NCBI RefSeq assembly: GCF_014075995.1
Contig: NZ_CP055153.1
Coordinates: 1,860,001 to 1,924,000 of the forward strand
Origin: Adhaeribacter radiodurans
GTDB taxonomy: Bacteria > Bacteroidota > Bacteroidia > Cytophagales > Hymenobacteraceae
Length of the DNA stretch: 64,000 nucleotides
Reading direction: 5' to 3'
Below are positions 2,653 to 58,081 of this stretch, piece by piece. The notes beneath the pieces are model-generated. The model made no database searches. It had not been told where the DNA came from and saw only the letters and a program-made list of their open reading frames with translations. Position 1 is the stretch's first letter, and each line of letters starts with the position of its first letter. Both the position numbers and the translations under genes were made by a program.

Positions 2653-2907
2653 GGTTACAGGTTGCAAGTTACAGGTTGCAAGCTGGAAAATTAGAAAGTT
2701 GTCAGGTTTTAAGGTTGAAATTTAGAAAGTTGTTATGTTGTTAAGTTAAATAGATGTGGTATCCTTTGAACTTAAATTATATAGGTTTTTGGATTGAATC
2801 ATTTTACAACCAATTAAAACTATTGTACTTATAAAAATGACAGAAACCCTCAACCTTACAACTTTCTAACTTTTTAACTTTCCAACTAATCAACCTTCCA
2901 ACTACTT
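2653..2907. repeat. Inverted pair of octad repeat arms between kdtA and an enoyl-CoA hydratase gene
   Basis: The right arm (2852-2907) reads as seven phased octads on the + strand: AACCTTAC, AACTTTCT, AACTTTTT, AACTTTCC, AACTAATC, AACCTTCC, AACTACTT. The last unit contains the stop codon (2902-2904) of the enoyl-CoA hydratase gene. The left arm (2653-2749) is the same theme on the opposite strand, for example TTAGAAAGTTGT and AAGGTTGAAA, and includes two copies of ACAGGTTGCAAG. About 100 bp of AT-rich spacer lies between. The arms can pair imperfectly. This is not a CRISPR (units are contiguous, no spacers) and no open reading frame is inside. Confidence 0.7.
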
Positions 2908-3675
2908 TCCTTTGAAATTGGGACTTCGTTTTTCTATAAAGGCGGCCATTCCTTCTTTTTGGTCTTCGGAAGCAAAGGCCAGGTAAAAGTTTTTGCGTTC
3001 CATTATTAATCCTTCTTCGAGGTGCGTCTCGAAGGAACGCAAAACGGCTTCTTTGGCTAACTTAACCGCTATAGGAGAAAGAGCAGCAATTTGCGCGGCG
3101 AGTTTTATAGCTTCCGATAAGTAAAGTTCAACGGGTACTACCCGGTTAATTAGTCCGTGCTTTTCAGCTTCTTCCGCGGATAAAAACTTGCCGGTTAAAA
3201 CCATTTCCATTGCTTTTGCTTTGCCAATGGCTTTGGTTAAACGCTGAGTACCACCGGCGCCCGGAATCACGCCAATTTTTATTTCCGGCTGACCAAAAAC
3301 GGCAGTTTCCGAAGCAATAATCATATCGCAGAGCATAGCAACTTCGCAACCACCTCCTAAGGCAAAACCCGAAACCGCTGCTATAATAGGTTTTTTCGTT
3401 TTTTTAATCTGATCCCAGGTGGCAAACTGGTCAATCTGGTACATGTCAATAGCCGATTTATCGGCCATTTGTTTTATATCGGCTCCCGCAGCAAAAGCTT
3501 TTTCGTTGCCGGTTAACACAATTACCCGCACTTCATTATCGGCATCTAAGTCTTGTAAGGCATTGCGCAACTCACTCATTAAAGGCACACTTAAGGCATT
3601 TAACTCTTTTGGCCGGTTAAACTCAATTAAAGCAATATGTGGTTGTACCGGATTGGTTACTTTAATAAATTCCAT
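2902..3675 (-). CDS. Enoyl-CoA hydratase/isomerase (crotonase family)
   Basis: Crotonase-fold enzyme of 257 residues, the standard length for a single-domain hydratase. The oxyanion-hole motif FAAGADIKQM is at about 61-70. Both catalytic glutamates of true enoyl-CoA hydratases are present: Glu111 in GGGCEVAMLCD and Glu131 in FGQPEIKIG. The PGAGGTQRL signature follows. The substrate would be a trans-2-enoyl-CoA in fatty-acid or amino-acid catabolism, but chain-length preference cannot be read from sequence. No other beta-oxidation gene is adjacent. The gene ends inside the octad repeat tract. A small membrane-protein gene lies 21 bp upstream on the same strand. Confidence 0.9.
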   Translation of the reverse strand: MEFIKVTNPVQPHIALIEFNRPKELNALSVPLMSELRNALQDLDADNEVRVIVLTGNEKAFAAGADIKQMADKSAIDMYQIDQFATWDQIKKTKKPIIAAVSGFALGGGCEVAMLCDMIIASETAVFGQPEIKIGVIPGAGGTQRLTKAIGKAKAMEMVLTGKFLSAEEAEKHGLINRVVPVELYLSEAIKLAAQIAALSPIAVKLAKEAVLRSFETHLEEGLIMERKNFYLAFASEDQKEGMAAFIEKRSPNFKGK

Positions 3676-3696
3676 AAGTTAAATAGTAGGTAGCTT

Positions 3697-4110
3697 TTAC
3701 AATAAAGTTTTAGGTTTTTGAAAAGAAGATACTAAAAACGCAGAAATAAGTATGGAAACATGCATAGCAATAGCCCCCTTAAAAGAAAACGCATTTACTT
3801 TATTTCCCAGTTCACTTACAATAATGTAGGACATTAATCTTCCTTCTATTAGATAGTAGACAATGTTCATGAATAGTATCTCAATAAAAAGAACCCAAAT
3901 AAAAAACGTGGATTTAGTAACTGGTACTACAGCTTTGTAAATTGGAAAAAGCAAAAACTGAAGAACTGTTCCTGATATTCCTAGTACTAGCGTGCTGAAT
4001 AGCAGAAACGAAAATAATTCATTATCCAGTTTATCAAATATAGCAATGGCTAGACCAAATAAAGTAAAAAGAATAAAGTGAAAAACTGTAAAACTCCAAA
4101 GTAATTTCAA
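3697..4110 (-). CDS. Small four-helix membrane protein, unknown function
   Basis: 137 residues with about four hydrophobic segments: near residues 5-24, 31-56, 66-90 and 112-130. I do not recognise the family. The only start that keeps the first helix is a TTG at 4108-4110; an in-frame stop lies three codons upstream and the first internal ATG would remove more than half the protein, so TTG is likely genuine. It lies 21 bp upstream of the enoyl-CoA hydratase gene on the same strand and may be co-transcribed, although no functional link is apparent. A strain-specific membrane protein or decayed transporter fragment is possible. Confidence 0.6.
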   Translation of the reverse strand: MKLLWSFTVFHFILFTLFGLAIAIFDKLDNELFSFLLFSTLVLGISGTVLQFLLFPIYKAVVPVTKSTFFIWVLFIEILFMNIVYYLIEGRLMSYIIVSELGNKVNAFSFKGAIAMHVSILISAFLVSSFQKPKTLL

Positions 4111-4236
4111 TTCCCTTATCTTTTATGATTAAGTACTTTAACCAAATTAGTTGAGATTATTAATAGTAAGTTGTTGAGCATTAAAATTTACTAAACTAAT
4201 AACGAACAACTACTTACCTGTTGCACTTGTTATTAC

Positions 4237-5508
4237 TTAGCTGATGCCGGTTTTACTAACAAACTGATACGTTGTGCGGGTACGCTGTTCCAGTAAAATT
4301 TCTTTCTCTTTTGTTAAACGAGTTATGCTTGGCTCGTCGTAATTTTTAATGGTAAATAAAGTTAAACCGGTATTGTAATGAATAGTAAAGTGGTCTTGTA
4401 AAGATTGAATAAACAGGTGGAGCCGGTTCGCGTCGTAATCTGTACAAACAGAGAATGAGATGGCAGAATTTTGCATTAAGTTGATCCTGAACCGATAATT
4501 AGCTAAAGCGGCAAAAATGGTGCTCAGGTTGCTTTCGTTTATAAAAGCAAAATCTTTCTCCTGAAAAGAAATTAAACATTGCTGTTGTTTCAAGATAAAG
4601 GCCGGCGCTATTTTATCGTGCCGGCAATCATGGATAATGGTGCCGGGGGCTTCTGGTTGCAGAAAGGATTTTACGTATAAAGGGATGCGGCTGGTGGCTA
4701 ATGGTTTAATAGTTTTCGGGTGAATAACACTGGCGCCGTAATACGCCATTTCTACCGTTTCCTGAAAAGAAATTTCCTGGTACAAAACTGTATCCGGAAA
4801 TAACTTCGGATCGGCATTTAGTAAACCCGCCACGTCTTTCCAGATGGTTACCGATTGAGCCGAGAGACAATGCGCAAAAATAGCAGCGGTATAATCCGAG
4901 CCTTCTCGCCCTAAAGTAGTTGTTAATCCATCGAAAGTGCCTCCCAAAAATCCTTGTGTTACTACGTGCTTTTCCTGCAAAAGTGGTTTTACATGGTTTT
5001 CAACGTTATTTTGGGTCAGGTTCCAGTCTACTTTAGCCTCACGCCAGATAGAATCAGTACGGATAATAGGTCGGCAATCCAGCCAGGTGCTGGGTACTTC
5101 TACGTGTTCCAGGTATTCGTTTAAAATTACCGATGCCAAGAGTTCCCCGTAACTTACTACCTGATCGTATTGCTTATCGTAAAAATCAGAAGCAGTAACG
5201 GTAAGTAAATAAGTCTCTAGTTGCTGAAATAAATTTTCTACTTGTTGATATACCGGATGTTGCGCCGTAAATAAATCTTGTAGTATCTGGTAATGGTATT
5301 GTTTCAGGTTATTTAATGCGGAGGTAAAATCTAGTTGCTGGAAGGCTTGTTCAAACACCTGCTCCAGGCCATTAGTAGTTTTACCCATGGCCGATACCAC
5401 TACCAAAATAAAATTATTATCCGGAGGTTGGCTTTTAAGAATGGTCCCAACGTTGCGTACAGCCGCCGCATCTTTCACCGAAGCACCACCAAATTTAAAT
5501 ACTTTCAT
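4237..5508 (-). CDS. lysC: Aspartate kinase
   Basis: Phosphorylates L-aspartate, the first step toward lysine/diaminopimelate, threonine and methionine. 423 residues, monofunctional, with no fused homoserine dehydrogenase. The kinase domain opens with KFGGASV (residues 5-11), then VSYGE (118-122), TTLGREGSDYTA (197-208) and WKDVAGLLNADPK. The region after about residue 290 is the expected place for the ACT-type allosteric domains; it is less conserved to my eye, so feedback specificity cannot be assigned. dapB, a later enzyme of the same pathway, is at 52.2 kb. The start ATG at 5508 sits directly before the kinase motif. The gene stands alone on its strand, with about 140 bp to the next gene upstream. 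Confidence 0.93.
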   Translation of the reverse strand: MKVFKFGGASVKDAAAVRNVGTILKSQPPDNNFILVVVSAMGKTTNGLEQVFEQAFQQLDFTSALNNLKQYHYQILQDLFTAQHPVYQQVENLFQQLETYLLTVTASDFYDKQYDQVVSYGELLASVILNEYLEHVEVPSTWLDCRPIIRTDSIWREAKVDWNLTQNNVENHVKPLLQEKHVVTQGFLGGTFDGLTTTLGREGSDYTAAIFAHCLSAQSVTIWKDVAGLLNADPKLFPDTVLYQEISFQETVEMAYYGASVIHPKTIKPLATSRIPLYVKSFLQPEAPGTIIHDCRHDKIAPAFILKQQQCLISFQEKDFAFINESNLSTIFAALANYRFRINLMQNSAISFSVCTDYDANRLHLFIQSLQDHFTIHYNTGLTLFTIKNYDEPSITRLTKEKEILLEQRTRTTYQFVSKTGIS

Positions 5509-5617
5509 TTATTTGTTTTAAGTAGGCCAGGAACAATAAATTTTATTTTTTGATTTACTAATTCCGAGGATCCGCTTGTTATCCGGAGAATTGAGCCGGA
5601 AAGGTAAACTTTTAGCA

Positions 5618-5646
5618 AAAAAAAATCCTCTGAAAAGAGGATTTTT
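5618..5646 (-). terminator. Rho-independent terminator after the DUF5606 gene
   Basis: Stem AAATCCTCT/AGAGGATTT with a four-base loop (GAAA on the + strand). Read on the minus strand it is followed by a run of nine T. It lies immediately downstream of the stop codon at 5650 and insulates the DUF5606 gene from aspartokinase. Confidence 0.85.
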
Positions 5647-5649
5647 AAT

Positions 5650-6135
5650 TTAAGATTCTTTATTGCTTGGTTCTTCGTCGGTTTCGCTAAGTGCTGGTTC
5701 GGCACTCATGGCATTTTCAGTTTCAGGGGTTGGTTCTGCTTCGGTAAAAGGTACGTATTTGCTTACAATACCATACCAATTTACTATTTTTTTAATGTCC
5801 GATACATACACCCGCGAGCGGTCGTAATCCGGAATAATTTCCTGAATAAAAGAAAATAACTCCGCGTTGCTCGACTTGCTGTTAACTGTTATCTCATCAC
5901 CAAACTTCTGGCGAATCCGTTCAAATACTTCGGCAAGAGGTACGGTAACTTCGGCATCTTCGGTATAAATAGAAATCTCGTGCAGTAAAGAAATCCGATG
6001 CTTTGATTGCGCTACTTGTCGGTTGGCTTTATCGTCTAACGTTTCGATAATAACCCCGTTGCGGGTAGGGCTCACTATCCGGTATAAGCCGCTCATACCA
6101 GCTATAGAAGCTATGTCTTTTAAATTAACAGGCAT
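5650..6135 (-). CDS. DUF5606 family protein
   Basis: 161 residues. The N-terminal half (MPVNLKDIASIAGMSGLYRI through about residue 70) matches my memory of DUF5606, a Bacteroidota-restricted cytoplasmic family of unknown function. The middle predicts mixed helices, including an EVFERIRQKFGDEI segment. The last 25 or so residues are acidic and Glu/Ser-rich (PETENAMSAEPALSETDEE), probably disordered. No catalytic motif is evident. It follows the TonB-C gene by 14 bp, so engB, the TonB-C gene and this gene probably form one minus-strand transcription unit ending at the terminator at 5618-5646. Confidence 0.8.
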   Translation of the reverse strand: MPVNLKDIASIAGMSGLYRIVSPTRNGVIIETLDDKANRQVAQSKHRISLLHEISIYTEDAEVTVPLAEVFERIRQKFGDEITVNSKSSNAELFSFIQEIIPDYDRSRVYVSDIKKIVNWYGIVSKYVPFTEAEPTPETENAMSAEPALSETDEEPSNKES

Positions 6136-6149
6136 AAATTGAGTTTTAA

Positions 6150-6557
6150 TTAAAGTTTAAAATTAATCGGAATGCTGTAGTTAGAAGCAAAACCAGGCGC
6201 ATTAAATTTTAATAATTTAACTACGCGTAATGCTTCATCGCCGCAGCCACCCCCAATGTTTTTAAGAATTTTGGCATTTGCTACTGTACCATCTTCGTTC
6301 ATCGTGAAGCCTATAATAACCTGACCCATAATGCGGTTCCGTTTCGCTAGCGGAGGGTATTGCAATTCTTGCGCGATAAAATCGTACATAGCTGTCTGCC
6401 CACCTTCGTAAAATTCGGCGAAAGGCAATACCTTCTCCACTCCAACCTTATTCGTTTTTGGCGCATCTTGTGTTGGAGCAGTAGTTTGAGCCATGGCTGA
6501 ATTAGCGGCTGCAAAGAAAGCAAAACTTAAAAACAAAATCGAAAATTTTAACTGCAT
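6150..6557 (-). CDS. Secreted TonB C-terminal domain protein
   Basis: 135 residues. The chosen ATG at 6557 gives a clean signal peptide: MQLK, a hydrophobic core, and cleavage after ANSAMA before Q. An upstream ATG-less extension to 6617 would bury it. The mature part has a TonB_C fold: YPPLAKRNRIMGQVIIGFTM, then DGTVANAKILKNIGGGCGDE and LKFNAPGF. It lacks the transmembrane anchor plus proline-rich linker of classical TonB, so it is a periplasmic stand-alone domain of the kind common in Bacteroidota, probably binding a partner rather than transducing energy. It sits 66 bp downstream of engB. Confidence 0.8.
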   Translation of the reverse strand: MQLKFSILFLSFAFFAAANSAMAQTTAPTQDAPKTNKVGVEKVLPFAEFYEGGQTAMYDFIAQELQYPPLAKRNRIMGQVIIGFTMNEDGTVANAKILKNIGGGCGDEALRVVKLLKFNAPGFASNYSIPINFKL

Positions 6558-6623
6558 ACTTTTTATTTGATTATAAAGATGAAAGTAGAACGCAGCCGGG
6601 GTCAAGATTAGTGCCAAATAATT

Positions 6624-9304: not shown

Positions 9305-9378
9305 AAAAAAGTTTAAACCAATAATTATCAATATATTAGACACAAGACTTGTTTGTGTAATGTGTTTTATTCCTTCTT

Positions 9379-9879: not shown

Positions 9880-10080
9880 CACCCCTATACGGCAGCAATG
9901 CAGTCGCATAGCCAACCAAGATTACAGTTAAAATATTTTTTATTAAAGGATCCAATTAATTTTACACCTTTACTTAAGTAAAAACCAGAAGCATTAACTT
10001 TAATTTAAGGGCATAAAGTAGAGCTCCGATTAATTTAATATTATAAAAAGAATTGTACTTAAAATACAGTTCGAGCGTTT

Positions 10081-11594: not shown

Positions 11595-11667
11595 AGTATA
11601 GTTCAGTCTAAAATGAAAGGGCGGGTAGTTTAATCTAACATAAAGAAAAAAATCATACAAAATAACG

Positions 11668-11702
11668 GTGGACTGTCGTCTATCGACTATGGACTAAACA
11701 CT
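11668..11702 (+). repeat. Five-heptad repeat ending at the SDR start codon
   Basis: Five contiguous heptads, GTGGACT, GTCGTCT, ATCGACT, ATGGACT and AAACACT, run without a gap into the ATG at 11703. The same family in the same orientation relative to its gene precedes rnhA (15496-15530). Confidence 0.7.
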
Positions 11703-12452
11703 ATGAATAAAATTGCTTTTATAACCGGCGCAACCTCGGGTATAGGTTGGGCTACTGCTGTAGCGTTGGCAAAAGTAGGCTACCGGATTATAGCCACTGG
11801 CCGGCGTGCCGAAAGATTAGAAGCCTTACAGAAAGATATTGACCAGGCAATTTTACCGTTGGTTTTTGATGTGCGCGATAAGCAGGCGGTAAAAGCCGCA
11901 ATAGCTAGTTTACCCACGGAATGGCAACAAATTGATGTACTCCTGAACAATGCCGGCAATGCCCACGGTTTAGCTCCTATTCAGGATGGCGATGAGCTGG
12001 ATTGGGAAATGATGATTGATATTAATGTAAAAGGTTTACTTTACGTATCGAAAGAGATTATTCCTTTTATGTTAAAGAGACAAGCCGGACACATAATAAA
12101 TATTGGTTCGGTAGCCGGTAAAGAGGTGTATGCTAACGGAAACGTTTATTGTGCTTCTAAATTTGCCGTAGATGCGCTCACCCAGGGCATGCGCCTGGAT
12201 TTAAATAAAGCGGGTATAAAAGTATCGGAGGTAAATCCGGGCTTGGTACAAACCGAGTTTTCGGAAGTACGGTTTAAAGGCGATAAAGAGCGCGCCGAAA
12301 CCGTATACCAAGGCTTTCAACCTTTACTGGCCGAAGATATTGCCGACTTAATTGTATTTATGGTTACTCGTCCGGCGCATGTAAATCTGGCGGAAATTCT
12401 TATTTTACCTACCGCCCAAGCCAGCGCCACTACGGTTAAGAAAGTTTTATAA
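11703..12452 (+). CDS. Short-chain dehydrogenase/reductase (YdfG-like)
   Basis: NAD(P)-dependent oxidoreductase of 249 residues, classical SDR. The cofactor loop is TGATSGIG (8-15); ATGRR at 31-35 suggests an NADPH preference. LNNAGNAHG is at 81-89, and the catalytic set is Ser136, Tyr149 and Lys153 in YCASK. It most resembles the YdfG group that oxidises serine, allo-threonine and 3-hydroxy acids, but substrate is not decided by sequence. The start ATG at 11703 is fixed by the conserved MNKIAFITGA N-terminus and sits directly at the end of a heptad repeat. The VOC gene follows after 110 bp. Confidence 0.88.
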   Translation: MNKIAFITGATSGIGWATAVALAKVGYRIIATGRRAERLEALQKDIDQAILPLVFDVRDKQAVKAAIASLPTEWQQIDVLLNNAGNAHGLAPIQDGDELDWEMMIDINVKGLLYVSKEIIPFMLKRQAGHIINIGSVAGKEVYANGNVYCASKFAVDALTQGMRLDLNKAGIKVSEVNPGLVQTEFSEVRFKGDKERAETVYQGFQPLLAEDIADLIVFMVTRPAHVNLAEILILPTAQASATTVKKVL

Positions 12453-15024: not shown

Positions 15025-15489
15025 TTACTTCGTCAATTTCTCGGCTGCTTCGTAACCGTAATCAATTAATAAATTAGGGCTTAAAGCACTTTCCACAGCC
15101 ATTTCGTCGCAACGTTCATTTTCTGGGTGACCAGCGTGACCTTTAATCCAAACAAAAGAAATAGTAAATTTTCGGTAAAGCGGCAGAAAACGGGTCCATA
15201 AATCGGCGTTAGCTTTACCGGCGAATCCTTTTTTTTGCCAGCCAAATACCCATTTCTTTTCCACGGCATCTACCACGTATTTGGAATCGGAGTATATAGT
15301 AACAGGTATATTTTCGTTTTTTAAAGCTTCTAATCCCACGATTACCGCAAGCAATTCCATCCGGTTATTGGTGGTGCGCCGGTACCCGGCCGTAAGCTCT
15401 TTTACAAATTGCTTGTATTTTAATATAGTACCGTAACCTCCCGGTCCCGGATTTCCCCGCGAAGCCCCATCCGTAAATATTTGAATCAT
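15025..15489 (-). CDS. rnhA: Ribonuclease HI
   Basis: Degrades RNA in RNA-DNA hybrids; 154 residues, the classic bacterial length. The metal-binding carboxylates are all present: Asp7 in IFTDGASRGNPGPGG, Glu45 in NNRMELLA, Asp68 in YSDSKYV and Asp128 in ENERCDEMA. His118, in the flexible loop KGHAGH, is the expected catalytic histidine. The basic handle segment KKWVFGWQKKGFAGKAN is also there. The ATG at 15489 is preceded by six bases and then a five-heptad repeat block. It is the first gene of an rnhA-trmN6 unit. Confidence 0.96.
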   Translation of the reverse strand: MIQIFTDGASRGNPGPGGYGTILKYKQFVKELTAGYRRTTNNRMELLAVIVGLEALKNENIPVTIYSDSKYVVDAVEKKWVFGWQKKGFAGKANADLWTRFLPLYRKFTISFVWIKGHAGHPENERCDEMAVESALSPNLLIDYGYEAAEKLTK

Positions 15490-15846
15490 GTTTTTAGTCC
15501 ATAGACCATGGTCGATAGTCCACAGACCAAAGCCCTACGTCTTTAAATTAAGTTTATTAGTTTAAATTGTTATATGTACTAGGTTCTGGTAAAGCAAGGG
15601 TTAAATTAAAAGGCATTATAAAGCAAGGCGTGCAGTGTAATAATTTTATTTTTTATCGGGCCTATCGTAAAATCACACTTATAGCTGTTTGTGAAGACAC
15701 AAACAGCGGCACCGCGCATTAGCATTGTCCTCACTGTCAAACTTTTTAAATTCTGTATCTTTATTTATTATACTGGATGTTGTAATAAATAATTGATTTC
15801 AGCTAGTTAACTAAAAAAGGTCTAATGTCCTGATACATGTATCTTT
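15490..15846. other. Gene-less stretch between a hypothetical gene and rnhA
   Basis: 357 bp. The rnhA-proximal part is the heptad block. The remainder is AT-rich with no open frame, hairpin terminator or full TAnnTTTG match that I can see on the rnhA strand. Confidence 0.5.
15496..15530 (-). repeat. Five-heptad repeat upstream of rnhA
   Basis: In the gene's direction the units are TTGGTCT, GTGGACT, ATCGACC, ATGGTCT and ATGGACT, then AAAAAC and the rnhA ATG. The block shares GTGGACT and ATGGACT with 11668-11702, and the latter is 6-7 bases before the start codon in both. Confidence 0.7.
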
Positions 15847-16359: not shown

Positions 16360-16372
16360 TATGAAACAGAAA

Positions 16373-16396
16373 AACCTTTCAACCTTCTAACCTACT
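16373..16396 (+). repeat. Octad repeat running into the 3' end of the MarC gene
   Basis: AACCTTTC, AACCTTCT, AACCTACT: three phased octads of the family also seen at 2852-2907. The MarC stop codon (16387-16389) and its last codons (Gly-Val-Gly) are encoded within the final two units, read on the other strand. Confidence 0.6.
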
Positions 16397-34860: not shown

Positions 34861-34871
34861 AGTTTATAATC

Positions 34872-34906
34872 GAATACCTAAAACTTAAAACCGAATACTT
34901 AAAGCT
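34872..34906. repeat. Five-heptad repeat at the 3' end of a hypothetical gene
   Basis: GAATACC, TAAAACT, TAAAACC, GAATACT, TAAAGCT in phase. The block ends one base from the stop codon (34908-34910) of the minus-strand gene. Its sequence differs from the other heptad blocks but the organisation is the same. Confidence 0.55.
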
Positions 34907-34907
34907 T

Positions 34908-36014
34908 TTACTGATATTGAATATAATATGGTTTCGGGCTTAAGGTTAGGATTTCTTTAGGATTCATTAAGCGCCAGCCTTTCCTTTTAATATCGTTTTT
35001 ATAGAAAATCTTTAAGCCAGTATATTGCACCGGTTCACCTTTTATGTATTTCTGGTAACTCCAACGTTTAATGGCAGGACTTCCCCAACCATCCATGTGC
35101 ATTACAATCTGGCAATAAGGGTTTAGTTTGATTTTTTTATAATTAGTAATCATAGCCTGGGTAAACCGGTGTACAATTAATAGCTTGGGTGGAATTTGAT
35201 GTTGCTGGGCAAGATCGGCCAAGTATTGAGTAGCATAATTTATGTCTTCAGCATCAAAAGAGCCTATGTGCCGGCCAGGAATACGATTCTGCTTTAAAGC
35301 AAATTCTGCGTCAATGCCCAGGTGCACATTGGGTAATTTTAAATAAGTTTCCAAAACCGGTAATTCTTCCTGCAGCGTACTTTGGCCGGCCTGAATATCT
35401 AAAAAAACTAAAGCATTACGTTTCTGAGCCAGTGCCAAAACTGTATCAATTACAGAATTGGCCATGCGCAACCGATATTTACCACTATTACCTGGTTCGT
35501 TCTGCGCCGTAACGGCAATTACATGTAAAGCTGGTTGTACGGGAGTTTTCGGATCGGCCTTTTCCCAATTTGCTACTTCCTTATCTAATTTAGCCAGCAT
35601 TTCGTTCGAGGGGAGTTCGCCTAAAATCCCCATCCGCTTAGATAAAGGATTACCGTAAAAAGCAATGATTCGTTTCCGGGGTAAAATGGAACCCATCAGG
35701 GTATCCGGGCCAACCACCGCTGAAGGGGAGGAGGTGATTTTACCTTTAAGTTTGGCATCAGTACCTAACCTGGTGTTGTTTAAACTATCAGCAATATTTC
35801 CTCGGTTAATCGAATCCTCAGCTGATTTCTTTATTAAATAATTGGTGTTGCTAGAGGCTGAATTTACTAAAGTGTCAGGATAGACTAAGTTCTGATTTTT
35901 TTTTGGAATTTTACTTTTAACCTTGTCTTCTGTTACAGGAGAAATAGCGGATATCACAAAGTAAATTAAGGTTGAAACAAGAGGGCAGTAAAGAAAAAAG
36001 AACTTCCAATTCAC
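34908..36014 (-). CDS. Secreted protein of an unnamed conserved family
   Basis: 368 residues. An N-terminal hydrophobic segment (FFFLYCPLVSTLIYFVISAI) is a signal anchor. A Ser/Asn-rich linker runs to about residue 110. The conserved C-terminal domain starts at RIIAFYGNPLSKRMGILGEL and contains LVFLDIQAGQSTLQEELPVL, NVHLGIDAEFAL and PPKLLIVHRFTQAMITNYKK. From memory this resembles lipoproteins in actinobacteria with strands ending in Asp, Gln and His, of TIM-barrel character. Function unknown; polysaccharide-related activity would be a guess. The gene diverges from smpB across 607 bp. Confidence 0.65.
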   Translation of the reverse strand: MNWKFFFLYCPLVSTLIYFVISAISPVTEDKVKSKIPKKNQNLVYPDTLVNSASSNTNYLIKKSAEDSINRGNIADSLNNTRLGTDAKLKGKITSSPSAVVGPDTLMGSILPRKRIIAFYGNPLSKRMGILGELPSNEMLAKLDKEVANWEKADPKTPVQPALHVIAVTAQNEPGNSGKYRLRMANSVIDTVLALAQKRNALVFLDIQAGQSTLQEELPVLETYLKLPNVHLGIDAEFALKQNRIPGRHIGSFDAEDINYATQYLADLAQQHQIPPKLLIVHRFTQAMITNYKKIKLNPYCQIVMHMDGWGSPAIKRWSYQKYIKGEPVQYTGLKIFYKNDIKRKGWRLMNPKEILTLSPKPYYIQYQ

Positions 36015-36621
36015 AAGAAAATTATATAATTAAGTTTGTTGAAAGACAATATCGGACAAATTACTCAATGTTTAGTAAGTCAAAGTAAAATTGTTCTCTA
36101 AATATTCTAGCAACTGAATAGTAAAGAATATATTATTTATATAAAGTTTAGGCCTCCCTACAAAGCATGATTTTGTTAGACTTTAATTGTAAATTACTCC
36201 AGAAGGATGCATATCTAAAAAAGGAATTTTCTAATTGAAAAATACTTTTAAAATATTGAATAGCTAAGTAGCTGAACAAAATTAATTTAGAATTCTCGGC
36301 TCAGAATTGCTGTTATTATCCATTAAGCAATTGCGTAAAAGTCTAGCCGTTAATAACTTGATATTGGTGTCTCTTTCCTTTGCTACTTAAAAAGCCTTTA
36401 TTTTCGTTAAACACTTCCTGTTTACTTTTAAAAATCGTAGATAGTAATGTTAGCTCCTTTTAAGAGTTAAAGTTACCCTCGGAATATGTTTGGCACTTAG
36501 TTGCAAATACTTCCGGAAAGTAAATAAGATTAATTATTTTGAATAAATGGCAGGAGAAACCAACTATAAAATTTTGAAAAAAGAAAAAATAGCTAAACTT
36601 TTGGCTATTACACGCGGATAA
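36015..36621. other. Gene-less 607 bp upstream of smpB
   Basis: AT-rich divergent region. The only structure I see is a degenerate five-heptad block at 36341-36375 that aligns unit by unit with the one at 42020-42054. No open frame, terminator or full TTTG-N19-TAnnTTTG promoter was found. Confidence 0.5.
36341..36375 (+). repeat. Degenerate five-heptad block (copy 1)
   Basis: GTCTAGC, CGTTAAT, AACTTGA, TATTGGT, GTCTCTT. It aligns in register with 42020-42054. The flanks also align for about 30 bp upstream (ATCCATTA then AAAAG before the first unit), implying common origin. Confidence 0.5.
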
Positions 36622-37089: not shown

Positions 37090-37090
37090 A

Positions 37091-37214
37091 TTAGACACTA
37101 GCCGTTAGATGCTAAAATTTATATTTAATATGATTAATTTTGATGGCAGGCTCTGATTAACACTGCCTGGTTATTCAAAGTCTAACGTCTAGTATCGAAC
37201 ATCTAACATCTAAA
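37091..37214. repeat. Inverted heptad repeat arms filling the smpB-NlpC junction
   Basis: The left arm (37091-37117) begins TTAGACA, CTAGCCG, TTAGATG one base after the smpB stop. The right arm (37180-37214) is GTCTAAC, GTCTAGT, ATCGAAC, ATCTAAC, ATCTAAA and ends 2 bp before the GTG start codon. Read on opposite strands the arms are the same repeat. The 60 bp centre holds a small GGCAG/CTGCC hairpin. Confidence 0.7.
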
Positions 37215-37216
37215 TA

Positions 37217-41854: not shown

Positions 41855-42405
41855 TTTAAAATAAGTATAAAGAGCTAAAAAAGAACAGTGTGAGATAGGA
41901 AATTAAAAAGTAAAATTAAAAGTAATTATATAAGCAACTCGACAAAAATTAATCTACTATCCTATGTGTTGGGATTGCAGTAAAAAGTGATTACCATTCC
42001 ATTACGGATACGCACAAAAGTCTAACATCTACTATCTTGATATCTGTGTCTATTTACTTATATTTATTTAGTAATTGATCTTTTCTTGTTAGAAAGAAGA
42101 TACGTCACAGGCTCAGTTAATAAGATTATATAATTTATTAAATACTTATTACTGAAATAAATAGAAATTTGTTATCCTCAACCTAGGACCGGATATCACA
42201 AATGTAAATTTTCAGTATTTATACAATAAAAGTATAAATACTGATTTAATAGCTATTTACACGGCATTTGATAATTACGTAAATTATCGGCTTACTTATC
42301 TGAGTAAATAACAGACATTTACTACCGGCTACTAATAATTTAGTAACTATAAGAGCATTAATAAACAAAATTATCCTTTTCAGAAACTTAGGATGAAAAT
42401 ATAGA
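41855..42405. other. Gene-less region between the response regulator and STAS genes
   Basis: 551 bp, very AT-rich, with divergent genes on either side. It contains the heptad block at 42020-42054. I see no clear promoter pair, open frame or terminator in the rest. Confidence 0.5.
42020..42054 (+). repeat. Five-heptad block (copy 2)
   Basis: GTCTAAC, ATCTACT, ATCTTGA, TATCTGT, GTCTATT. It is the better preserved of two aligned copies (the other is 36341-36375) and shares GTCTAAC with the smpB-NlpC right arm. Confidence 0.6.
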
Positions 42406-51003: not shown

Positions 51004-51028
51004 AAATTAATTAACCGTAGTAACTAAA

Positions 51029-51066
51029 AACAAAAAAGTACTGACTAAAGCCAGTACTTTTTTGTT
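51029..51066. terminator. Bidirectional terminator between ung and lepB
   Basis: A 15 bp stem (51029-51043 with 51052-51066) whose core is AAAAAAGTACTG/CAGTACTTTTTT. A and T runs on the two sides make it work for both convergent genes. Confidence 0.92.
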
Positions 51067-51083
51067 TTCTATTTATCTAATTA

Positions 51084-52178: not shown

Positions 52179-52195
52179 ACGTTTGATATTGTAAC

Positions 52196-53535: not shown

Positions 53536-53537
53536 AT

Positions 53538-54455
53538 TTAATAATTTAAAATTTCCAAAATCCGGTTTAAATCTTCAACGGAAACAAAAGGTATTTTAAT
53601 CTCTCCTTTTCCTTTAGAATTTGATTTTACCTGAATTTTGGTCCCGAAATGCGTAGATAAACGGGATTCTACATTTTTTATCTCGCCCGAGGGTGTTGGT
53701 ACTGGCTTTTCTTCTTTTTTAGATGCCTGATTGGATTCGTTGTTTAAGTGGCGGGCTAGTTCCTCTACTTTCCGCACCGATAGTTCATCGGCAATTATAC
53801 GTTTATAAACTTCCAGTTGCTTTTCAACGGTAGAAATGTTGATTAATGCCCGGGCATGGCCCATGCTGATTTGATTATCCCGCAGACCAATTTGAATATC
53901 CGGTGGAAGCTTTAATAAACGCAGGTAATTAGTAACCGTAGTCCGCTTTTTGCCAACCCGGTCTCCTAATTCTTCCTGCTTTAAATTACACTCACTAAGT
54001 AAGCGCTGGTAAGAAAGCGCAATTTCAATAGCATTTAAATTCTCGCGCTGGATATTTTCGATTAATGCCATTTCCAGCATTTGCTGGTCATTGGCCTGGC
54101 GAATAAAAGCAGGGATAGTTTTTAAACCAGCTAATTTGGAGGCCTGCAAGCGGCGTTCGCCCGAAATTAATTGGTACGTATTATCATCAAACTTACGAAC
54201 CGTAATAGGTTGAATAATGCCTTGGATTTTAATGGATTCGGCCAACTCTTCTAACGCTTCCGCATCGAAATGAGTACGGGGCTGAAAAGGGTTTGTCTGA
54301 ATAGAATTTAAAGAAATCTCATCAATAGCGTTTACGGGTGCAACCTCGGTACTACTGGCAACTTCTTCTTTTCTGTCATAGCTACCAGTAATTAGAGCGT
54401 TTAAGCCCCGGCCCAATCCTCCTTTTTTCTTTACTTGATTTTTATTTTCGGACAT
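53538..54455 (-). CDS. parB: Chromosome partitioning protein ParB
   Basis: 305 residues. Conserved segments: KKKGGLGRGLNALITG at the N-terminus, then ISLNSIQTNPFQPRTHFDAE, the CTPase motif region YQLISGERRLQASKLAGLKT (about 112-131) and NIQRENLNAIEIALSYQRLL. The HTH is LGDRVGKKRTTVTNYLRLLK. It binds parS and loads SMC. No parS site (TGTTTCACGTGAAACA type) was seen in the window. The start is 67 bp downstream of the parA stop. Confidence 0.95.
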   Translation of the reverse strand: MSENKNQVKKKGGLGRGLNALITGSYDRKEEVASSTEVAPVNAIDEISLNSIQTNPFQPRTHFDAEALEELAESIKIQGIIQPITVRKFDDNTYQLISGERRLQASKLAGLKTIPAFIRQANDQQMLEMALIENIQRENLNAIEIALSYQRLLSECNLKQEELGDRVGKKRTTVTNYLRLLKLPPDIQIGLRDNQISMGHARALINISTVEKQLEVYKRIIADELSVRKVEELARHLNNESNQASKKEEKPVPTPSGEIKNVESRLSTHFGTKIQVKSNSKGKGEIKIPFVSVEDLNRILEILNY

Positions 54456-54522
54456 TCGAATAATTGCAATTTTGAAACTGCTTTCCGGTAAAAGCTAAAA
54501 TTTAATAACAGGTAGCAGTACA

Positions 54523-55302
54523 TTATCGTGCTTGAACCACCGCATTTTTTTCCACAATCTCTCGTGCCAGGTTCAGGTAACTAATGGCTCCTTTGCTATC
54601 CGCATCGTGCATAATAGCCGGCAAGCCAAAGCTCGGAGATTCGCTTAATTTAACGTTACGCGGAATAATTGTATCAAAAACCATTTGTTGGAAATGGAGC
54701 TTTACCTCTTCAACTACCTGATTTGATAAACGCAACCGTACATCGTACATGGTAAGCAAAATGCCCTCAATTTCCAGTTCCTGATTTAAGCGCGATTGAA
54801 TAATTTTAATGGTATTCAACAACTTACCTAAACCCTCCAGGGCAAAATATTCGCATTGTACCGGAATAATAACCGAGTTAGCGGCAGTAAGTGAATTTAC
54901 GGTAATTAAACCCAGCGAAGGGGAGCAATCAATTATGATAAAATCGTATTTATCTTTAATCGGTGCTAATGCTTCCTTCATTTTTTCCTCGCGGTTTGGC
55001 AGGTTAATCATCTCTACCTCAGCCCCAACTAAGTCAATATGCGAAGGAATTAAATCTAAAAAATTAATAGAAGAAGATATAATAATATCGGCTGCATTTA
55101 ATCCGTCTACCATGCACTCATAAATACTGGTAGAAATATCTTTCGGGTCGTATCCAATACCGGAGGTAGCATTTGCCTGTGGATCGGCATCAACCAATAA
55201 GGTTTTGTATTCCAACGCTGCCAGGCTGGCCGCCAGGTTAATCGCGGAAGTGGTTTTGCCTACCCCGCCTTTTTGGTTGGCTACTGCAATTATTTTTCCC
55301 AT
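54523..55302 (-). CDS. parA: Chromosome partitioning ATPase ParA (Soj)
   Basis: 259 residues, a deviant Walker A ATPase. KGGVGKTTSAINLAASLAAL (11-30) is followed by LLVDADPQANATSGIG and FIIIDCSPSLGLITVNSLTA. The C-terminal helix is typical. The absence of an N-terminal HTH marks it as the chromosomal type. It comes first in parA-parB and 20 bp downstream of the UPF0173 gene. Confidence 0.96.
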   Translation of the reverse strand: MGKIIAVANQKGGVGKTTSAINLAASLAALEYKTLLVDADPQANATSGIGYDPKDISTSIYECMVDGLNAADIIISSSINFLDLIPSHIDLVGAEVEMINLPNREEKMKEALAPIKDKYDFIIIDCSPSLGLITVNSLTAANSVIIPVQCEYFALEGLGKLLNTIKIIQSRLNQELEIEGILLTMYDVRLRLSNQVVEEVKLHFQQMVFDTIIPRNVKLSESPSFGLPAIMHDADSKGAISYLNLAREIVEKNAVVQAR

Positions 55303-55322
55303 TTTATGCGTTGTTCCTAAAC

Positions 55323-56006
55323 TTAAATAGTTATGGTTTCTCCAATGGCAGGTATAATTAACTCTTTACCTGCCTGTTGAGCTGCTTTTAAGGCCTGCTC
55401 TTTGTCTAATTGTATAATAGGAAAAGTATCGTAGTGCATTCCTATAATTTTACTTGTGTTCACCCATTCGGCAGCTATTAAGGCGTCTTCTACGTCCATG
55501 GTTAAACGATCGCCGATAGGTAAAAAAGCTACATCTACTTTGCCGTATCTTTCGGCAATTATTTTCATATCGTAGGTAAGAGCAGTATCACCGGCGAAGT
55601 AAATTACTTTATCAGCAATTTGAACAACATAGCCCGCCGGATTACCACCGTACGTGCCATCGGGCAATACGCTGGAATGTACAGCCGCTACCATTTTAAC
55701 AGTACCAAACGATAGAGGAGCTTTACCCCCGATATTCATGTGTACTAAATTCTCAATACCTTTATTCTTAAACCACTCGGCAATATCGTATATAGCTACC
55801 AGGGTGGCATTATCTTTTTTGGCAAAATACTCGGCATCGGCCATATGATCCTGGTGACCATGCGATAACAAAATAAAGTCGCAGGTAATGCTCTCTTTAT
55901 CAATGGATTTTGCCAGTTCGTTATACGTAATAAATGGATCAGTAAGTACTCTAATACCATTAAAATCAAATAAAAAACACGAATGTCCCAGATACGTAAC
56001 GGTCAT
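55323..56006 (-). CDS. UPF0173 metal-dependent hydrolase
   Basis: 227 residues, metallo-beta-lactamase fold. MTVTYLGHSCFLFDFNGI at the start is followed by FILLSHGHQDHMADAEYFAK with HxHxDH, VHSSVLPDGTYGGNPAGYVV, and YFAGDTALTYDMKIIAERYG. The end has GMHYDTFPIIQLDKEQ. Substrate unknown. It precedes parA by 20 bp, so the parA-lepB run could begin here, driven by the -7 box at 56052-56059. Confidence 0.9.
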   Translation of the reverse strand: MTVTYLGHSCFLFDFNGIRVLTDPFITYNELAKSIDKESITCDFILLSHGHQDHMADAEYFAKKDNATLVAIYDIAEWFKNKGIENLVHMNIGGKAPLSFGTVKMVAAVHSSVLPDGTYGGNPAGYVVQIADKVIYFAGDTALTYDMKIIAERYGKVDVAFLPIGDRLTMDVEDALIAAEWVNTSKIIGMHYDTFPIIQLDKEQALKAAQQAGKELIIPAIGETITI

Positions 56007-56051
56007 GATGGAATGGTTTAGCAGCCGTATTTTATTCGACTAAATCTTGCG

Positions 56052-56059
56052 CAAAGATA
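56052..56059 (-). promoter_or_regulatory. Candidate -7 box for the UPF0173-parAB-lepB operon
   Basis: Minus-strand TATCTTTG, a full TAnnTTTG match, 46 bp upstream of the ATG at 56006. No TTTG stands 19 bp upstream. Confidence 0.45.
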
Positions 56060-56091
56060 TACTATTTTAGGGAGAATTTTTATTTAGAACG

Positions 56092-57738
56092 ATGAGACTA
56101 AGGATATTTTTCTGCTGCTGCGTGCTTGTAATATTGGCTTGCGAAAGGCGGTTTGCAGATGAAACGAATAAAAAAGTTTTTAAGTATAACCAGCCAGAAT
56201 CCTTAACCTCGCTGGACCCGGCTTATGCACGCAACCAGGGTAATATTTGGGCTGTAACCCAACTCTATAACGGTTTAATAGAACTTGATGCGCAACTGCA
56301 TCCAGCACCGGCCATTGCCCGCTCCTGGCAAATTTCGCCGGATGGACGCCGGTATTTATTTCATTTGCGGCAAGATGTTTATTTTCACGATGACCCGGTT
56401 TTTTCAAACGGAAAAGGACGCCTGGTGAAGGCAGCTGATTTTGTTTATTCTTTTAAACGCATTCTGGAGCCCCGTACCGCTAGTACCGGCAGTTGGATTT
56501 TTAAAGGCAAAGTGCTGGAAAATAGTAAAGGAGAAGTGGCAGATACGTGCTTTAAAGCTCTGAACGACAGTACGCTAGTAATTTATTTAAAAGAGCCGTT
56601 TATTCCTTTTTTAGGAATTTTGAGTATGCCTTATGCATTTGTGGTACCTAAAGAAGGAATAACTAAATTTGGCAAAGATTTTCGTAGCCACCCCATTGGT
56701 ACGGGACCGTTTTTATTTAAAAGCTGGGACGAAGAAAATGCCATTATCTTTCACAAAAATCCGCGGTATTGGAAGCGAGACATCAAAGGTAAAGCATTAC
56801 CTTATTTGGATGCTGTACAGATTTCGTTTATTAATGATCGCAAATTAGAGTTTCTCACTTTTCAGCAAGGCAAATTAGATTTTCTTTCGGGAGTGAAAGG
56901 CAGTTCTAAAGATTTAATATTTAATCCCGACGGAACCGTACAAGAAGATTTTGCCGGAAAGTTTAAAGTAGAGAAAAGACCTTACTTAGACACCGAATAC
57001 ATAGGAATTCAGTTAGACACTAAAAATCTTCCGGAGGATAATCCGGCTTTACGCGATAAGCGCGTGCGGCAAGCTTTGAATTATGCATTAAATAAAAAAG
57101 CCTTGGTATTGTATTACCGGAATAACTTAGGTATACCCGGACACTCAGGCATGGTACCGCCAGCTTTGCCTTCATATAATCGTAAGCTAGTGGGTGGTTA
57201 TGCGTTCCAACCAGATAAAGCGAGAAAGCTGTTACAATTGGCTGGGTATGGTCCGCACAATCCTTTACAGATTCGGCTGAATACTGTGGCGGAACACAAA
57301 GAAATTGCCGAATTTATGCAAAAGAACTGGGCAGATGTAGGAGTGGAGGTAGAGATTAACATTAATCAGTTTCCCGCTCACCAGGAAGCCGTAGATAACG
57401 GACGCTCGGCCTTTTTTATGAAGTCGTGGTTTGGCGATTACCCGGATGCAGAAAACTTTTTAGCTCTGTTTTACAGTCCCAATTTCTCACCCGGAGGCCC
57501 CAATAAAACTCATTTTAAAAATTCTACTTATGATCGTTTGTACGAACAAGCCCGTTTGGAGCAAAATGAAGAAAAGCGGTGTGCTTTATACCAGGCCATG
57601 GATAAAATTATAGTGGAAGAGTCGCCGGTGATTGTGTTGTTTTACGATGAGGTAATTCGTTTAACGCAAAATAATATCACTGGTTTGCAGGCCGATGCTA
57701 TGAATAATTTGCGCCTGGAAAAAGTAGATAAAATCTAA
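56092..57738 (+). CDS. Peptide ABC-transporter substrate-binding lipoprotein
   Basis: 548 residues, solute-binding family 5 (DppA/OppA type). A short signal ends in a lipobox-like CCCVLVILAC with the lipid Cys near residue 17. Family blocks: SLTSLDPAYARNQGNIWAVT, the WQISPDGRRYLFHLRQDVYF strand, FVYSFKRILEPRTASTGSWI and HPIGTGPFLFKSWDEENAII, then VRQALNYALNKKALV, AFFMKSWFGDYPDAENFLAL and EESPVIVLFYDEVIRL. No permease or ATPase genes are adjacent, so its transporter is elsewhere or it signals. The ligand is probably oligopeptides. Confidence 0.9.
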   Translation: MRLRIFFCCCVLVILACERRFADETNKKVFKYNQPESLTSLDPAYARNQGNIWAVTQLYNGLIELDAQLHPAPAIARSWQISPDGRRYLFHLRQDVYFHDDPVFSNGKGRLVKAADFVYSFKRILEPRTASTGSWIFKGKVLENSKGEVADTCFKALNDSTLVIYLKEPFIPFLGILSMPYAFVVPKEGITKFGKDFRSHPIGTGPFLFKSWDEENAIIFHKNPRYWKRDIKGKALPYLDAVQISFINDRKLEFLTFQQGKLDFLSGVKGSSKDLIFNPDGTVQEDFAGKFKVEKRPYLDTEYIGIQLDTKNLPEDNPALRDKRVRQALNYALNKKALVLYYRNNLGIPGHSGMVPPALPSYNRKLVGGYAFQPDKARKLLQLAGYGPHNPLQIRLNTVAEHKEIAEFMQKNWADVGVEVEININQFPAHQEAVDNGRSAFFMKSWFGDYPDAENFLALFYSPNFSPGGPNKTHFKNSTYDRLYEQARLEQNEEKRCALYQAMDKIIVEESPVIVLFYDEVIRLTQNNITGLQADAMNNLRLEKVDKI

Positions 57739-57740
57739 AT

Positions 57741-57776
57741 CGCGGATTTTCCCGGATTACCCGGATTCCGCGGATT
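57741..57776. repeat. Nonad repeat arm, left
   Basis: CGCGGATTT, TCCCGGATT, ACCCGGATT, CCGCGGATT: four phased nonads beginning two bases after the stop codon of the peptide-binding gene. It is the inverse of the arm at 58055-58081. Confidence 0.65.
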
Positions 57777-58008
57777 AATTTTGCTTGTACCGCTGGAAGT
57801 GTGTACTGTATTGGAGAGTAATCCAGAAAATATAAATGCGGCTATAATTAGGTTACGGATATTATACCAATGCTATACCTTAAAGCCTAGGGAGTGAAAA
57901 CCTCCCGAATTTGTTTTTTAAACTACTGATATAGTAATTAGTAAATACTATTTGGTATTAATATTTTTATATGCTGAAAATATTTGTTGATTATAGTGTA
58001 CAAAAAGT

Positions 58009-58041
58009 AAAGCCGTACTTAGTATAACTAAGAACGGCTTT
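58009..58041. terminator. Hairpin between the convergent peptide-binding gene and yidC
   Basis: AAAGCCGT-A-CTTAG (58009-58022) pairs with CTAAG-A-ACGGCTTT (58028-58041) around TATAA, with one A/A mismatch. AT-rich flanks lack long T runs. Confidence 0.6.
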
Positions 58042-58054
58042 ATGCTAATAAAAT

Positions 58055-58081
58055 AATCCGCGTTATCCGCGAAAATCCGTG
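58055..58081. repeat. Nonad repeat arm, right
   Basis: AATCCGCGT, TATCCGCGA, AAATCCGTG: three phased nonads ending two bases before the yidC stop codon (58084-58086). The reverse complement of the unit matches the left arm. Confidence 0.65.

Follow-up and report, generated by a model that had tools for sequence, protein, structure and literature searches.

Intergenic heptamer repeats have been reported in several bacterial groups, with no agreed cause. Cyanobacterial STRR heptanucleotides form 7-nt intergenic arrays, and IVP genes on cyanobacterial plasmids carry arms of this kind. The GGGNATC heptamers of Xanthomonas and Nostoc are likewise intergenic 7-nt arrays, but they were studied for their G-quadruplex potential, and the link to IVP is not drawn in the sections of that work cited here (PMC4692102). 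The TAACTGA repeats of Beggiatoaceae, Cyanobacteria, and some Bacteroidetes resemble our blocks in being heptads by start codons, yet they consist of one word only and are read, in the portion cited, as possible translational control (PMC4679880). The original prediction for the DNA studied here knew of no named family; these two publications supply heptamer relatives, while the connection to IVP is absent from the parts of them used here.

IVP (PF05635, 23S_rRNA_IVP, or S23) is a four-helix bundle. To our knowledge, the protein has no settled function. Its frame is found in intervening sequences (IVS) of 23S rRNA, such as the 428-nt IVS of Coxiella and that of Azospirillum lipoferum. Like the elements described below, these hold one PF05635 gene between terminal inverted repeats, are of similar length, and have heptamers in tandem next to the gene: the unit is GACAGAT in Coxiella, according to the passage cited (PMC4990558), and GACAGAG-like units in the heptad arms of the A. 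lipoferum IVP, which lies inside 23S rRNA (Rfam). Our elements differ in lying between protein genes, in their many unit families, and in their many gene-less copies. Two other systems bear comparison. REPIN/RAYT shares inverted doublets, a variable spacer, and repeat families tied to protein lineages (PMC3116915, in part), but depends on a Y1 transposase and palindromic repeats. In addition, PF05635 resembles Avd, the accessory protein of diversity-generating retroelements, and IVP relatives are described as ring pentamers akin to Avd in the relevant sections of PMC4990558 and PMC10053308. Both PDB relatives have 5 chains, and Xanthomonas campestris XCC0516 is a solved IVP (2gsc).

Our results make it likely that the heptad and octad blocks of Adhaeribacter radiodurans are arms of IVP elements, mostly as gene-less copies or relics. 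The blocks were predicted within the window, the whole 64-kb stretch of this genome that was analyzed, where we recognize the following arms and blocks:

2653..2747, + strand: left arm of region 2645-2901, heptads GGTTACA/GGTTGCA by a gene start, then octads (lag-8 score 19)
2851..2901, - strand: right-hand partner of the preceding arm; its octads are CAACTTTC (+ strand), or GTTGGAAA when read outward from the gene (lag-8 score 18)
11665..11699, - strand: arm of TAGTCCA heptads ahead of the SDR gene at 11703 (lag-7 score 13)
15495..15535, + strand: arm of TAGTCCA heptads ahead of the RNase H gene (15025-15489, - strand; lag-7 score 14)
16362..16391, - strand: short, marginal octad block between two - strand genes (lag-8 score 7)
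34864..34907, - strand: weak, marginal heptad block directly abutting the stop codon at 34908 (lag-7 score 10)
37091..37120, + strand: left arm of TTAGACA/TTAGATG type after smpB, weak alone
37177..37213, - strand: right arm of TTAGATG heptads before the NlpC/P60 gene (lag-7 score 14)
57739..57777, + strand: left nonad arm after the SBP_bac_5 gene (lag-9 score 14)
58055..58083, - strand: right nonad arm by the stop codon of the 60KD_IMP/YidC gene (lag score 7)

Phased blocks at gene ends are confirmed as a class, but the class is mixed. In 2.06 Mb from A. radiodurans and three sister species, arrays of period 7-9 numbered 100, while shuffled sequence gave 5.7, and 56 of the 100 lay within 10 bp of a gene boundary, where uniform placement in the same regions predicts 14.0. 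Because of this excess and this clustering, the class stands against shuffling and random scatter. Of the three periods proposed, 7 and 8 are enriched and 9 is not: across 720 intergenic regions of A. radiodurans (224 kb; segments scoring at least 14; two shuffles), there were 28 segments at lag 7, 18 at lag 14, and 7 at lag 8, each against 0 in shuffles, and 2 at lag 9 against 1.0. To call the period strict was too strong, since heptads and octads join within one arm; the drift of units was seen as described. When the scan (lags 7 and 8; score at least 14) went beyond intergenic DNA, 63 of 84 arrays were intergenic, 19 crossed an edge, and 2 lay in genes. The same unit families recur among arrays at many loci with locked polarity.

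Within the window, the blocks predicted at 11668, 15496, 37180, and 2852 hold up, and those at 34872 and 16373 are weak when taken alone. The arm at 2653..2747, absent from the earlier list, is the partner of block 2852. Two of the three junctions said to carry inverted arms are clear, namely 2645-2901 (score 20, with an inverted match of 20-23 between its arms) and 57739-58083 (21, even though the nonads at 57741 and 58055 differ in lag score); the third, 37090-37216, scores only 13 in its own genome and 23 in the G003 ortholog. Each window arm was scored against the IVP arms, with 60 shuffles as controls. In IVP-arm likeness and polarity, the arms starting at 2653, 2851, 11665, 15495, 37177, and 34864 exceeded all 60. 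Specifically, the best match was 23 for 2653..2747 (L244, G003; shuffle maximum 20), 30 for 2851..2901 (L244; maximum 17; opposite polarity 9), 20 for 37177..37213 (L232, G003; maximum 14), and 18 for 34864..34907 (maximum 15), while an arm of L222, an IVP locus of the same genome, matched 11665..11699 at 25 and 15495..15535 at 22 (maxima 14 and 11). Block 16362..16391 was one point above its shuffles (14 against 13), arm 37091..37120 was not above them (12 against 14), and the nonads matched no IVP arm (score 7). The nonad junction has orthologous arms in G003 and G004. The array at 11665..11699 is also found in G003 and has at least 20 matches in its own genome (itself included; 40 of 50 candidates scored); among the matches listed, those other than itself cover the array part only. 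No PF05635 gene lies in the window, and the five matches in this genome are all outside it.

With lag scores of 0 and 6, the two other heptad blocks of the original prediction, at 36341 and 42020, do not qualify as tandem arrays. Each is the 3' part of one copy of a ~131-bp dispersed repeat, which we call element B; a second dispersed repeat, element A, also occurs in the window:

4130..4216, + strand: copy of element A, with ends TAAGTA...TACTTA and a heptad tail
36265..36380, + strand: copy of element B containing 36341
41931..42060, + strand: copy of element B containing 42020

Element A has at least 17 matches in its own genome at E < 1e-3 (itself included; 40 of 99 candidates scored), and the 3' end of the element B copy at 41931..42060 has at least 41 (itself included; 40 of 103 candidates scored). 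Both show MITE traits, that is, terminal inverted repeats (TAAGTA/TACTTA) and many dispersed copies; no target-site duplication was recognized by eye in the flanks examined.

The evidence for IVP elements comes from the PF05635 genes. In A. radiodurans, all five lie between inverted arms, of five different unit families. Among 30 loci found in the genus with the PF05635 model, inverted arms scoring at least 16 flank 24, compared with 31 of 1603 genes overall and 11 of 301 size controls (genes of 90-160 aa); at a score of at least 20, the counts are 18 of 30 and 6 of 1603, and the best-scoring control gene is itself an IVP. Six loci had no arms scoring at least 16 (L222, L229, L245, L246, and the broken L249 and L250); at L222, matching arms are present but further out. 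A full element at the 24 armed loci measures 417-568 bp, and a single arm strings together units of 7 or 8 nt and spans 19-69 nt in alignments. Arm ends fall within 15 bp of the neighbor's called boundary in 40 of 48 cases and within 10 bp in 29. Where both neighbors were called, they were codirectional at 29 of 29 loci, compared with 1064 of 1545 gene pairs, but the 29 cases are not independent because they represent only 11 junction groups. Three distant IVP lineages are represented within one junction group.

The association extends beyond the genus. Of 16 plasmid loci found by tblastn with one IVP (one more was found by annotation), on cyanobacterial and other plasmids, 14 have inverted arms, against 0.3 in shuffles and 1.7 with mismatched loci; one of the 14 is the A. 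lipoferum locus in 23S rRNA. A control set of 118 other genes, from 150 kb of three of the plasmids, contained no armed gene, and one further IVP there had an arm score of 37. As in the genus, plasmid loci with annotation are otherwise located between protein genes, outside 23S rRNA; a Gemmatirosa plasmid locus without annotation stands outside this comparison. In IMG/VR, 11 of 16 IVP records have arms (10 of 14 after two look-alike pairs were merged). A search of 296 Bacteroidota genomes gave PF05635 matches in 232; G002 is the genus member without a match. In two other Bacteroidota with IVP genes (200 kb each), we counted 3 and 0 arrays, and inverted arms scoring at least 16 at 0 of 73 and 3 of 49 regions; of these three, one is heptad-arm-like (convergent, score 21) and another is a different repeat.

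Furthermore, arms covary with proteins. Across 23 loci, protein and arm similarity were correlated (Mantel r 0.56, p 2e-4), also when only pairs at different junctions were compared (r 0.32, p 6e-4), and not in the opposite polarity (r -0.12, p 0.95). Of the 100 arrays, 73 match an IVP arm at 16 or more in the same outward polarity, compared with 5 in the opposite polarity and 13 of 100 scrambled-unit controls; 27 have no such match. A. radiodurans has only 5 IVP genes next to many gene-less arrays, and the octad GTTGAAA family, without an IVP in this genome, has one in a sister (L244).

One junction can be compared with and without the element. Between an acyltransferase and a dihydrolipoyl dehydrogenase gene (Pfam; named sucB-lpd in our analysis), the element is present in G000, G007, G003, and G004, with its frame broken in the last, and the intergenic lengths are 438, 438, 488, and 563 bp, respectively. 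The native spacer measures 110 (G002), 109 (G001), 110 (G005), and 114 bp (G006). A terminator-like hairpin pattern occurs in all four native spacers and in none of the four element-bearing ones.

From these observations, we propose that arms are carried by a small element that is probably mobile. A full element consists of an arm, one PF05635 gene, and an inverted arm, set between codirectional genes with the arms near the neighbors' codons; its two arms are alike, and their unit word follows the IVP lineage. The window blocks would be arms without the gene, either noncoding copies or relics. The IVP protein may read the arms with one unit per subunit; a solved relative forms a ring of five subunits. 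The distribution suggests that the element is or was mobile, perhaps via RNA, a route that we propose because the related protein Avd acts together with a reverse transcriptase and because divergent regions almost lack matched arms. In the transcript, the two arms could pair with each other and be cleaved at that point, as is reported for IVS in rRNA, and adjoining noncoding DNA may be lost, so that arms would end up near codons. Since we know of no nuclease or polymerase activity for PF05635, a partner enzyme must be assumed; none was identified (RAYT was examined), and no target-site duplication was found for IVP elements. More tentatively, and leaning slightly against it, we consider that one ancient class of IVP elements might explain most repeats of 7 or 8 nt between bacterial genes, namely the heptads and octads of Bacteroidota, the heptanucleotides of cyanobacteria, TAACTGA, and GGGNATC, and also 23S rRNA intervening sequences. 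By reading one unit with each subunit, the IVP ring would set the unit length, each lineage would have its own word, and spread via RNA would lead into transcribed junctions, replacing the native spacer.

Alternatively, slippage and template switching could generate the arrays independently in intergenic DNA, with IVP genes merely inserting between existing arms. Template switching creates and repairs inverted arms (PMC8794818, in the part cited), unit order was common to both arms in 13 of 32 tests (p ≤ 0.05, with arms chosen by best alignment), and after the acyltransferase gene, the native spacer of G005 and G006 starts like two units of the G000 arm. We nevertheless regard this scenario as unlikely, given that the units of an arm track the IVP lineage even when the junctions differ, that identical words with fixed polarity occur at many loci, and that every IVP gene of A. 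radiodurans sits between arms. The unusual replication or repair process first suggested may keep arms alike, but it leaves the tie to one protein family unexplained. Concerted evolution of arms is without support, because arm-to-arm similarity within species (mean 19.4) is not clearly above that of the same arm between species (16.3 and 20.2). Of the three original guesses, spreading repeats fits best, with many loci, common unit families, and locked polarity.

Regulatory leaders fared worse. As 5' elements binding a translational regulator, a role proposed for the TAACTGA repeats, they would explain why many arrays end a few bases from a start codon, as is also described in the cited part of PMC4679880. 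The nearest codon is a start for 60 arrays and a stop for 40, but within 9 bp, 28 arrays lie at stops and 27 at starts (start distances are less sure, because genes were called as longest ORFs), so the TAACTGA trait of lying mainly before start codons fails here. Arms are also inversely paired across a region, at the two ends of 28 of 794 intergenic regions against 2.0 for mismatched ends. Matched arms occur in only 1 of 184 divergent regions, yet in 8 of 118 convergent ones, which have no start codon. Arrays as such, in contrast to matched arms, do occur in divergent regions (9 of 100, in 230 regions), although of the 62 within 15 bp of a boundary, 1 is in such a region. Taken together, this makes a leader role very improbable. 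We give even less credence to hairpins kept by selection on transcript processing or termination without a mobile element: matched arms do lie mostly where transcripts can cross, and RNase III cuts the IVS out of Coxiella rRNA (PMC4990558, as far as cited), but GU-type mismatches are not in excess over AC-type (47 against 73 in codirectional regions, 41 against 35 in IVP arms), leaving RNA pairing unsupported, and the IVP gene goes unexplained. Equally implausible is movement of palindromic repeats by a Y1 transposase, for although REPINs are likewise intergenic inverted pairs with variable spacer and fixed polarity (PMC3116915, same sections) and the genome has four Y1_Tnp genes, heptad units are tandem where REPs form hairpins, and no heptad-family arm was seen within 300 bp of any of the four, two of which (L219, L220) have strong inverted repeats of other sequence and two short palindromes.

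If IVP proteins and heptamers belong together, each explains the other. The link to a gene family known from rRNA inserts could then account for similar unexplained repeats in other bacteria. IVP elements would form a family of tiny elements with a repeat code of their own, which would be simple to test by binding, and their arms would provide a readout of junctions remodeled by such elements, operons included.

Our results support the existence of short-period phased repeats as a class in intergenic DNA, along with their anchoring at gene ends, both of which the original prediction had proposed from the window alone. Across four species (2.06 Mb, 1160 regions), we found 100 tandem arrays with periods of 7 to 9 nt against 5.7 in shuffled sequence, and 56 of the 100 lay no more than 10 bp from the start or end of a gene, where 14.0 would be expected, with gene limits here being those of the longest open reading frames. 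In the 6.94-Mb genome of A. radiodurans, for which one window protein points to Botryobacter and Pontibacter as the closest named kin, lags of 7, 14, 21, 8, and 16 rose above dinucleotide shuffles of 720 intergenic regions and lag 9 showed no excess, leaving two of the three proposed periods enriched. The ten blocks originally named were likewise a mixture: four are clear, another two are weak, a 131-bp dispersed repeat accounts for two more as copies of itself, and the two nonad blocks are true inverted arms of another kind. Single arrays do occur in divergent regions (9 of the 100, in 230 such regions), but of the 62 that come within 15 bp of a gene boundary just one does so there. The idea that arrays supply stop codons in all frames was dropped because the GTTGCAA family, inspected by eye, shows no stop when read outward. 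Samples of 200 kb from two other Bacteroidota yielded three arrays and none, with inverted arms scoring at least 16 in 0 of 73 and 3 of 49 regions, one of these heptad-like. Since they are so few there, arms without a gene may be frequent in some genera only.

The arrays behave as arms, that is, as runs of 7- or 8-nt units at the ends of an intergenic region. The two ends of one region matched in inverted orientation with an alignment score of at least 16 in 28 of 794 cases, compared to 1 with the polarity reversed and 2.0 for ends taken from different regions. By class, matched arms occurred in 8/216 ++, 11/276 −−, 8/118 convergent, and 1/184 divergent regions. Taken together, these counts indicate that arms pair across a spacer and that divergent promoter regions are nearly devoid of matched arms. 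A gene-cassette model, in which arms surround ordinary genes, was ruled out, as pairing across one gene was found in 1 of 888 cases against 2.0 for mismatched pairs. Read outward from the neighboring gene, a unit family mostly keeps a constant polarity, whether after a stop or before a start; among interlocus pairs scoring at least 22, some of which are non-array repeats, 140 share polarity and 62 are opposed. Mismatches between arms are not enriched in GU pairs, which counts against a requirement for an RNA stem and against selection for RNA pairing. A test of whether the arms of one species evolve in concert gave no demonstration of it, and the unit order common to both arms is only suggestive because the arms were picked by best alignment.

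The probable coding partner of these arms is a PF05635 (23S_rRNA_IVP) gene, hereafter IVP. A 118-aa gene between two TAGTCCA-armed regions belongs to this family, and a whole-genome search of A. radiodurans recovered five PF05635 genes, all five between inverted arms, with arm families that all differ: TTAGATG, TAGTCCA, CCATTTA, AATTATGAATTAGA, and GTTGCAG (names given by eye). The family is present in seven of the eight genus genomes, G002 being the member without it, and yielded 35 matches. Arms were counted at 30 loci, the remaining five matches having no locus. Inverted arms scoring at least 16 flank 24 of these 30, compared to 31 of 1603 genes overall and 11 of 301 genes of 90 to 160 aa; at a score of at least 20 the contrast is 18/30 against 6/1603, and the top-scoring control gene is itself an IVP gene whose locus was not among the 30. 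These counts are not independent because the species are closely related and have junctions in common. Six loci fall short of 16: L229, L245, and L246; L249 and L250, which are broken; and L222, where matching arms lie farther out. The 24 armed loci have 48 arm ends, 40 of them no more than 15 bp from the neighbor's called boundary. At one locus (L198, 5870-6610), TAGTCCA arms occupy successive junctions around a single IVP gene and the right arm is doubled. At another (L197, 4171-5680), two facing GTTGCAG arms enclose an IS3-type gene pair (HTH_Tnp_1 and rve domains), possibly an insertion into an armed spacer. A RAYT/REPIN partner was excluded because the four RAYT-like genes of this genome (L217 to L220) carry other repeats. 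These form a separate repeat system, including GGCGCGGAAGTTACTTCCGTGCC at L219 and a 64-bp inverted flank at L220.

The repeat word follows the protein lineage. Similarity among IVP proteins correlated with similarity among their arms (Mantel r = 0.56, p = 2e-4, 23 loci), including when only pairs from different junctions were considered (r = 0.32, p = 6e-4), and no correlation remained once the polarity of the arms was reversed (r = -0.12, p = 0.95). The 23 loci exclude five with arms below 16 (L229, L245, L246, L249, and L250) and two with a broken or misread frame (L221 and L236); L225 and L232, which contain a stop, were used only up to that stop. Furthermore, 73 of the 100 arrays, which had been found regardless of IVP, matched an IVP arm from one of 25 loci at a score of at least 16 in the same outward polarity, compared to 5 in opposite polarity and 13 with letters scrambled within the unit; at 18 or more the numbers were 61, 3, and 2. 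Window blocks 2653, 2851, 11665, 15495, 34864, and 37177 matched IVP arms above all 60 shuffles and block 16362 did so by one point, while block 37091 and the nonads did not exceed the 60 shuffles. For L222, the outer pair of arms was chosen manually for the Mantel test, the array matching, and the scoring of window blocks.

Occupancy of junctions turns over among species. By flanking genes, the 30 genus loci form 11 junction groups, eight of which include more than one species. At a junction of two MacB/FtsX permease genes, the IVP proteins of the various species belong to three lineages that are distant from one another (relative protein score, 0.11 to 0.17) and differ in repeat word, which implies replacement or independent reinsertion there. 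A second junction separates genes that we call sucB and lpd (names our own; Pfam, 2-oxoacid dehydrogenase acyltransferase and pyridine nucleotide-disulphide oxidoreductase). With an element, their spacing is 438, 438, 488, and 563 bp in genomes G000, G007, G003, and G004, the IVP frame being broken in G004; with a short spacer, it is 110, 109, 110, and 114 bp in G002, G001, G005, and G006. A terminator-like hairpin pattern occurs in all four short spacers and none of the four long ones, and thus at this junction the element sits where the native spacer would be. The short spacers of G005 and G006 start with letters resembling two units of the G000 arm, so this arm may have a local origin. In all seven genomes that have the thiolase gene of a thiolase-acyl-CoA dehydrogenase junction, this gene is followed by an IVP match, which in G006 is a piece only.

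The association extends beyond the genus. A tblastn search of named plasmids gave 22 records with an IVP match, of which we read 16 (14 cyanobacterial, one Gemmatirosa, and one Azospirillum), leaving out H22, four from the bird pathogen Riemerella, and H6, which shares its species with H5. Inverted arms scoring at least 16 were found at 14 of the 16 loci, compared to 0.3 with shuffled flanks and 1.7 with mismatched loci; the two misses, from Pseudanabaena and Nostoc HK-01, are flanked on each side by heptad arrays that form no matching inverted pair. Among 118 other genes in a 150-kb sample drawn from three of the plasmids, none reached 16, and one further IVP gene there scored 37. IVP genes also lie within CRISPR operons of cyanobacterial plasmids, between cas6 and cas4 twice and between cas10 and a Cmr3-family gene once (L268, L273, and L280). 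The Azospirillum gene is inside 23S rRNA (Rfam) with GACAGAG-like heptads on both sides, resembling the Coxiella IVS, which is described as having terminal inverted repeats of 28 bp along with heptamers of the form GACAGAT (PMC4990558). Among IMG/VR contigs, 11 of 16 records scored at least 16, or 10 of 14 because two pairs are look-alikes (misses L255 and L256, identical; hits L257 and L259, 99% alike). When IMG/VR was scanned with another three IVP queries, they returned 0, 3, and 0 loci, which stand outside the scored arm counts, and one IVP query found no tblastn match in phage records. PF05635 matched in 232 of 296 sampled Bacteroidota genomes, a figure that concerns the gene and not the arms.

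Other repeats in the window are not explained by IVP.

Repeats of the window outside the IVP system
57739-58083: nonad arms of the CGCGGATTT type that flank a terminator-like hairpin where two genes converge; G003 and G004 have them too
4130-4216: element A, a dispersed repeat of ~90 to 115 bp with ends TAAGTA/TACTTA
36265-36380 and 41931-42060: element B, dispersed, nearly fixed in length at ~131 bp

The nonads were considered as IVP arms and rejected, having no match to them. Element A carries a variable heptad tail (AACGAAC/AACTAAT) and has at least 17 matches at E < 1e-3 in its own genome, itself included. Element B has conserved ends and a hypervariable middle, with at least 41 matches to its 3' end in the same genome; RNAalifold found no conserved RNA on either strand of 25 copies. 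At gathering cutoffs, Rfam matched only tRNA-Cys in the window. In another genome (L132 to L141, G084), intergenic ends are occupied by GTCATYCTGAG...GAAGRATCT, a repeat of another kind that shares this inverted layout.

The anatomy of the elements, their association with IVP, the covariation of protein and arm, the polarity, and the turnover at junctions are all observed as distribution; no element was seen to move. A partial literature search for links between PF05635, S23, or four-helix-bundle proteins and tandem heptamers returned only the Coxiella IVS paper, which, in the part available, mentions heptamers lying upstream of the IVS reading frame (PMC4990558), and on this sole basis we regard the general link as unreported. 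Parts of published work nevertheless offer a framework. In its solved structure, the Xanthomonas campestris IVP forms a homopentameric ring (PMC4990558, citing Lin 2006), RNase III cuts the Coxiella IVS out of rRNA (PMC4990558), and PF05635 bears a resemblance to Avd, a protein that partners a reverse transcriptase (PMC10053308). Both PDB relatives that we found have five chains. It is possible that each subunit of the IVP ring reads one repeat unit, that the elements spread through a putative partner enzyme, perhaps via RNA, and that flanking DNA would be lost up to the codons of the neighboring genes.
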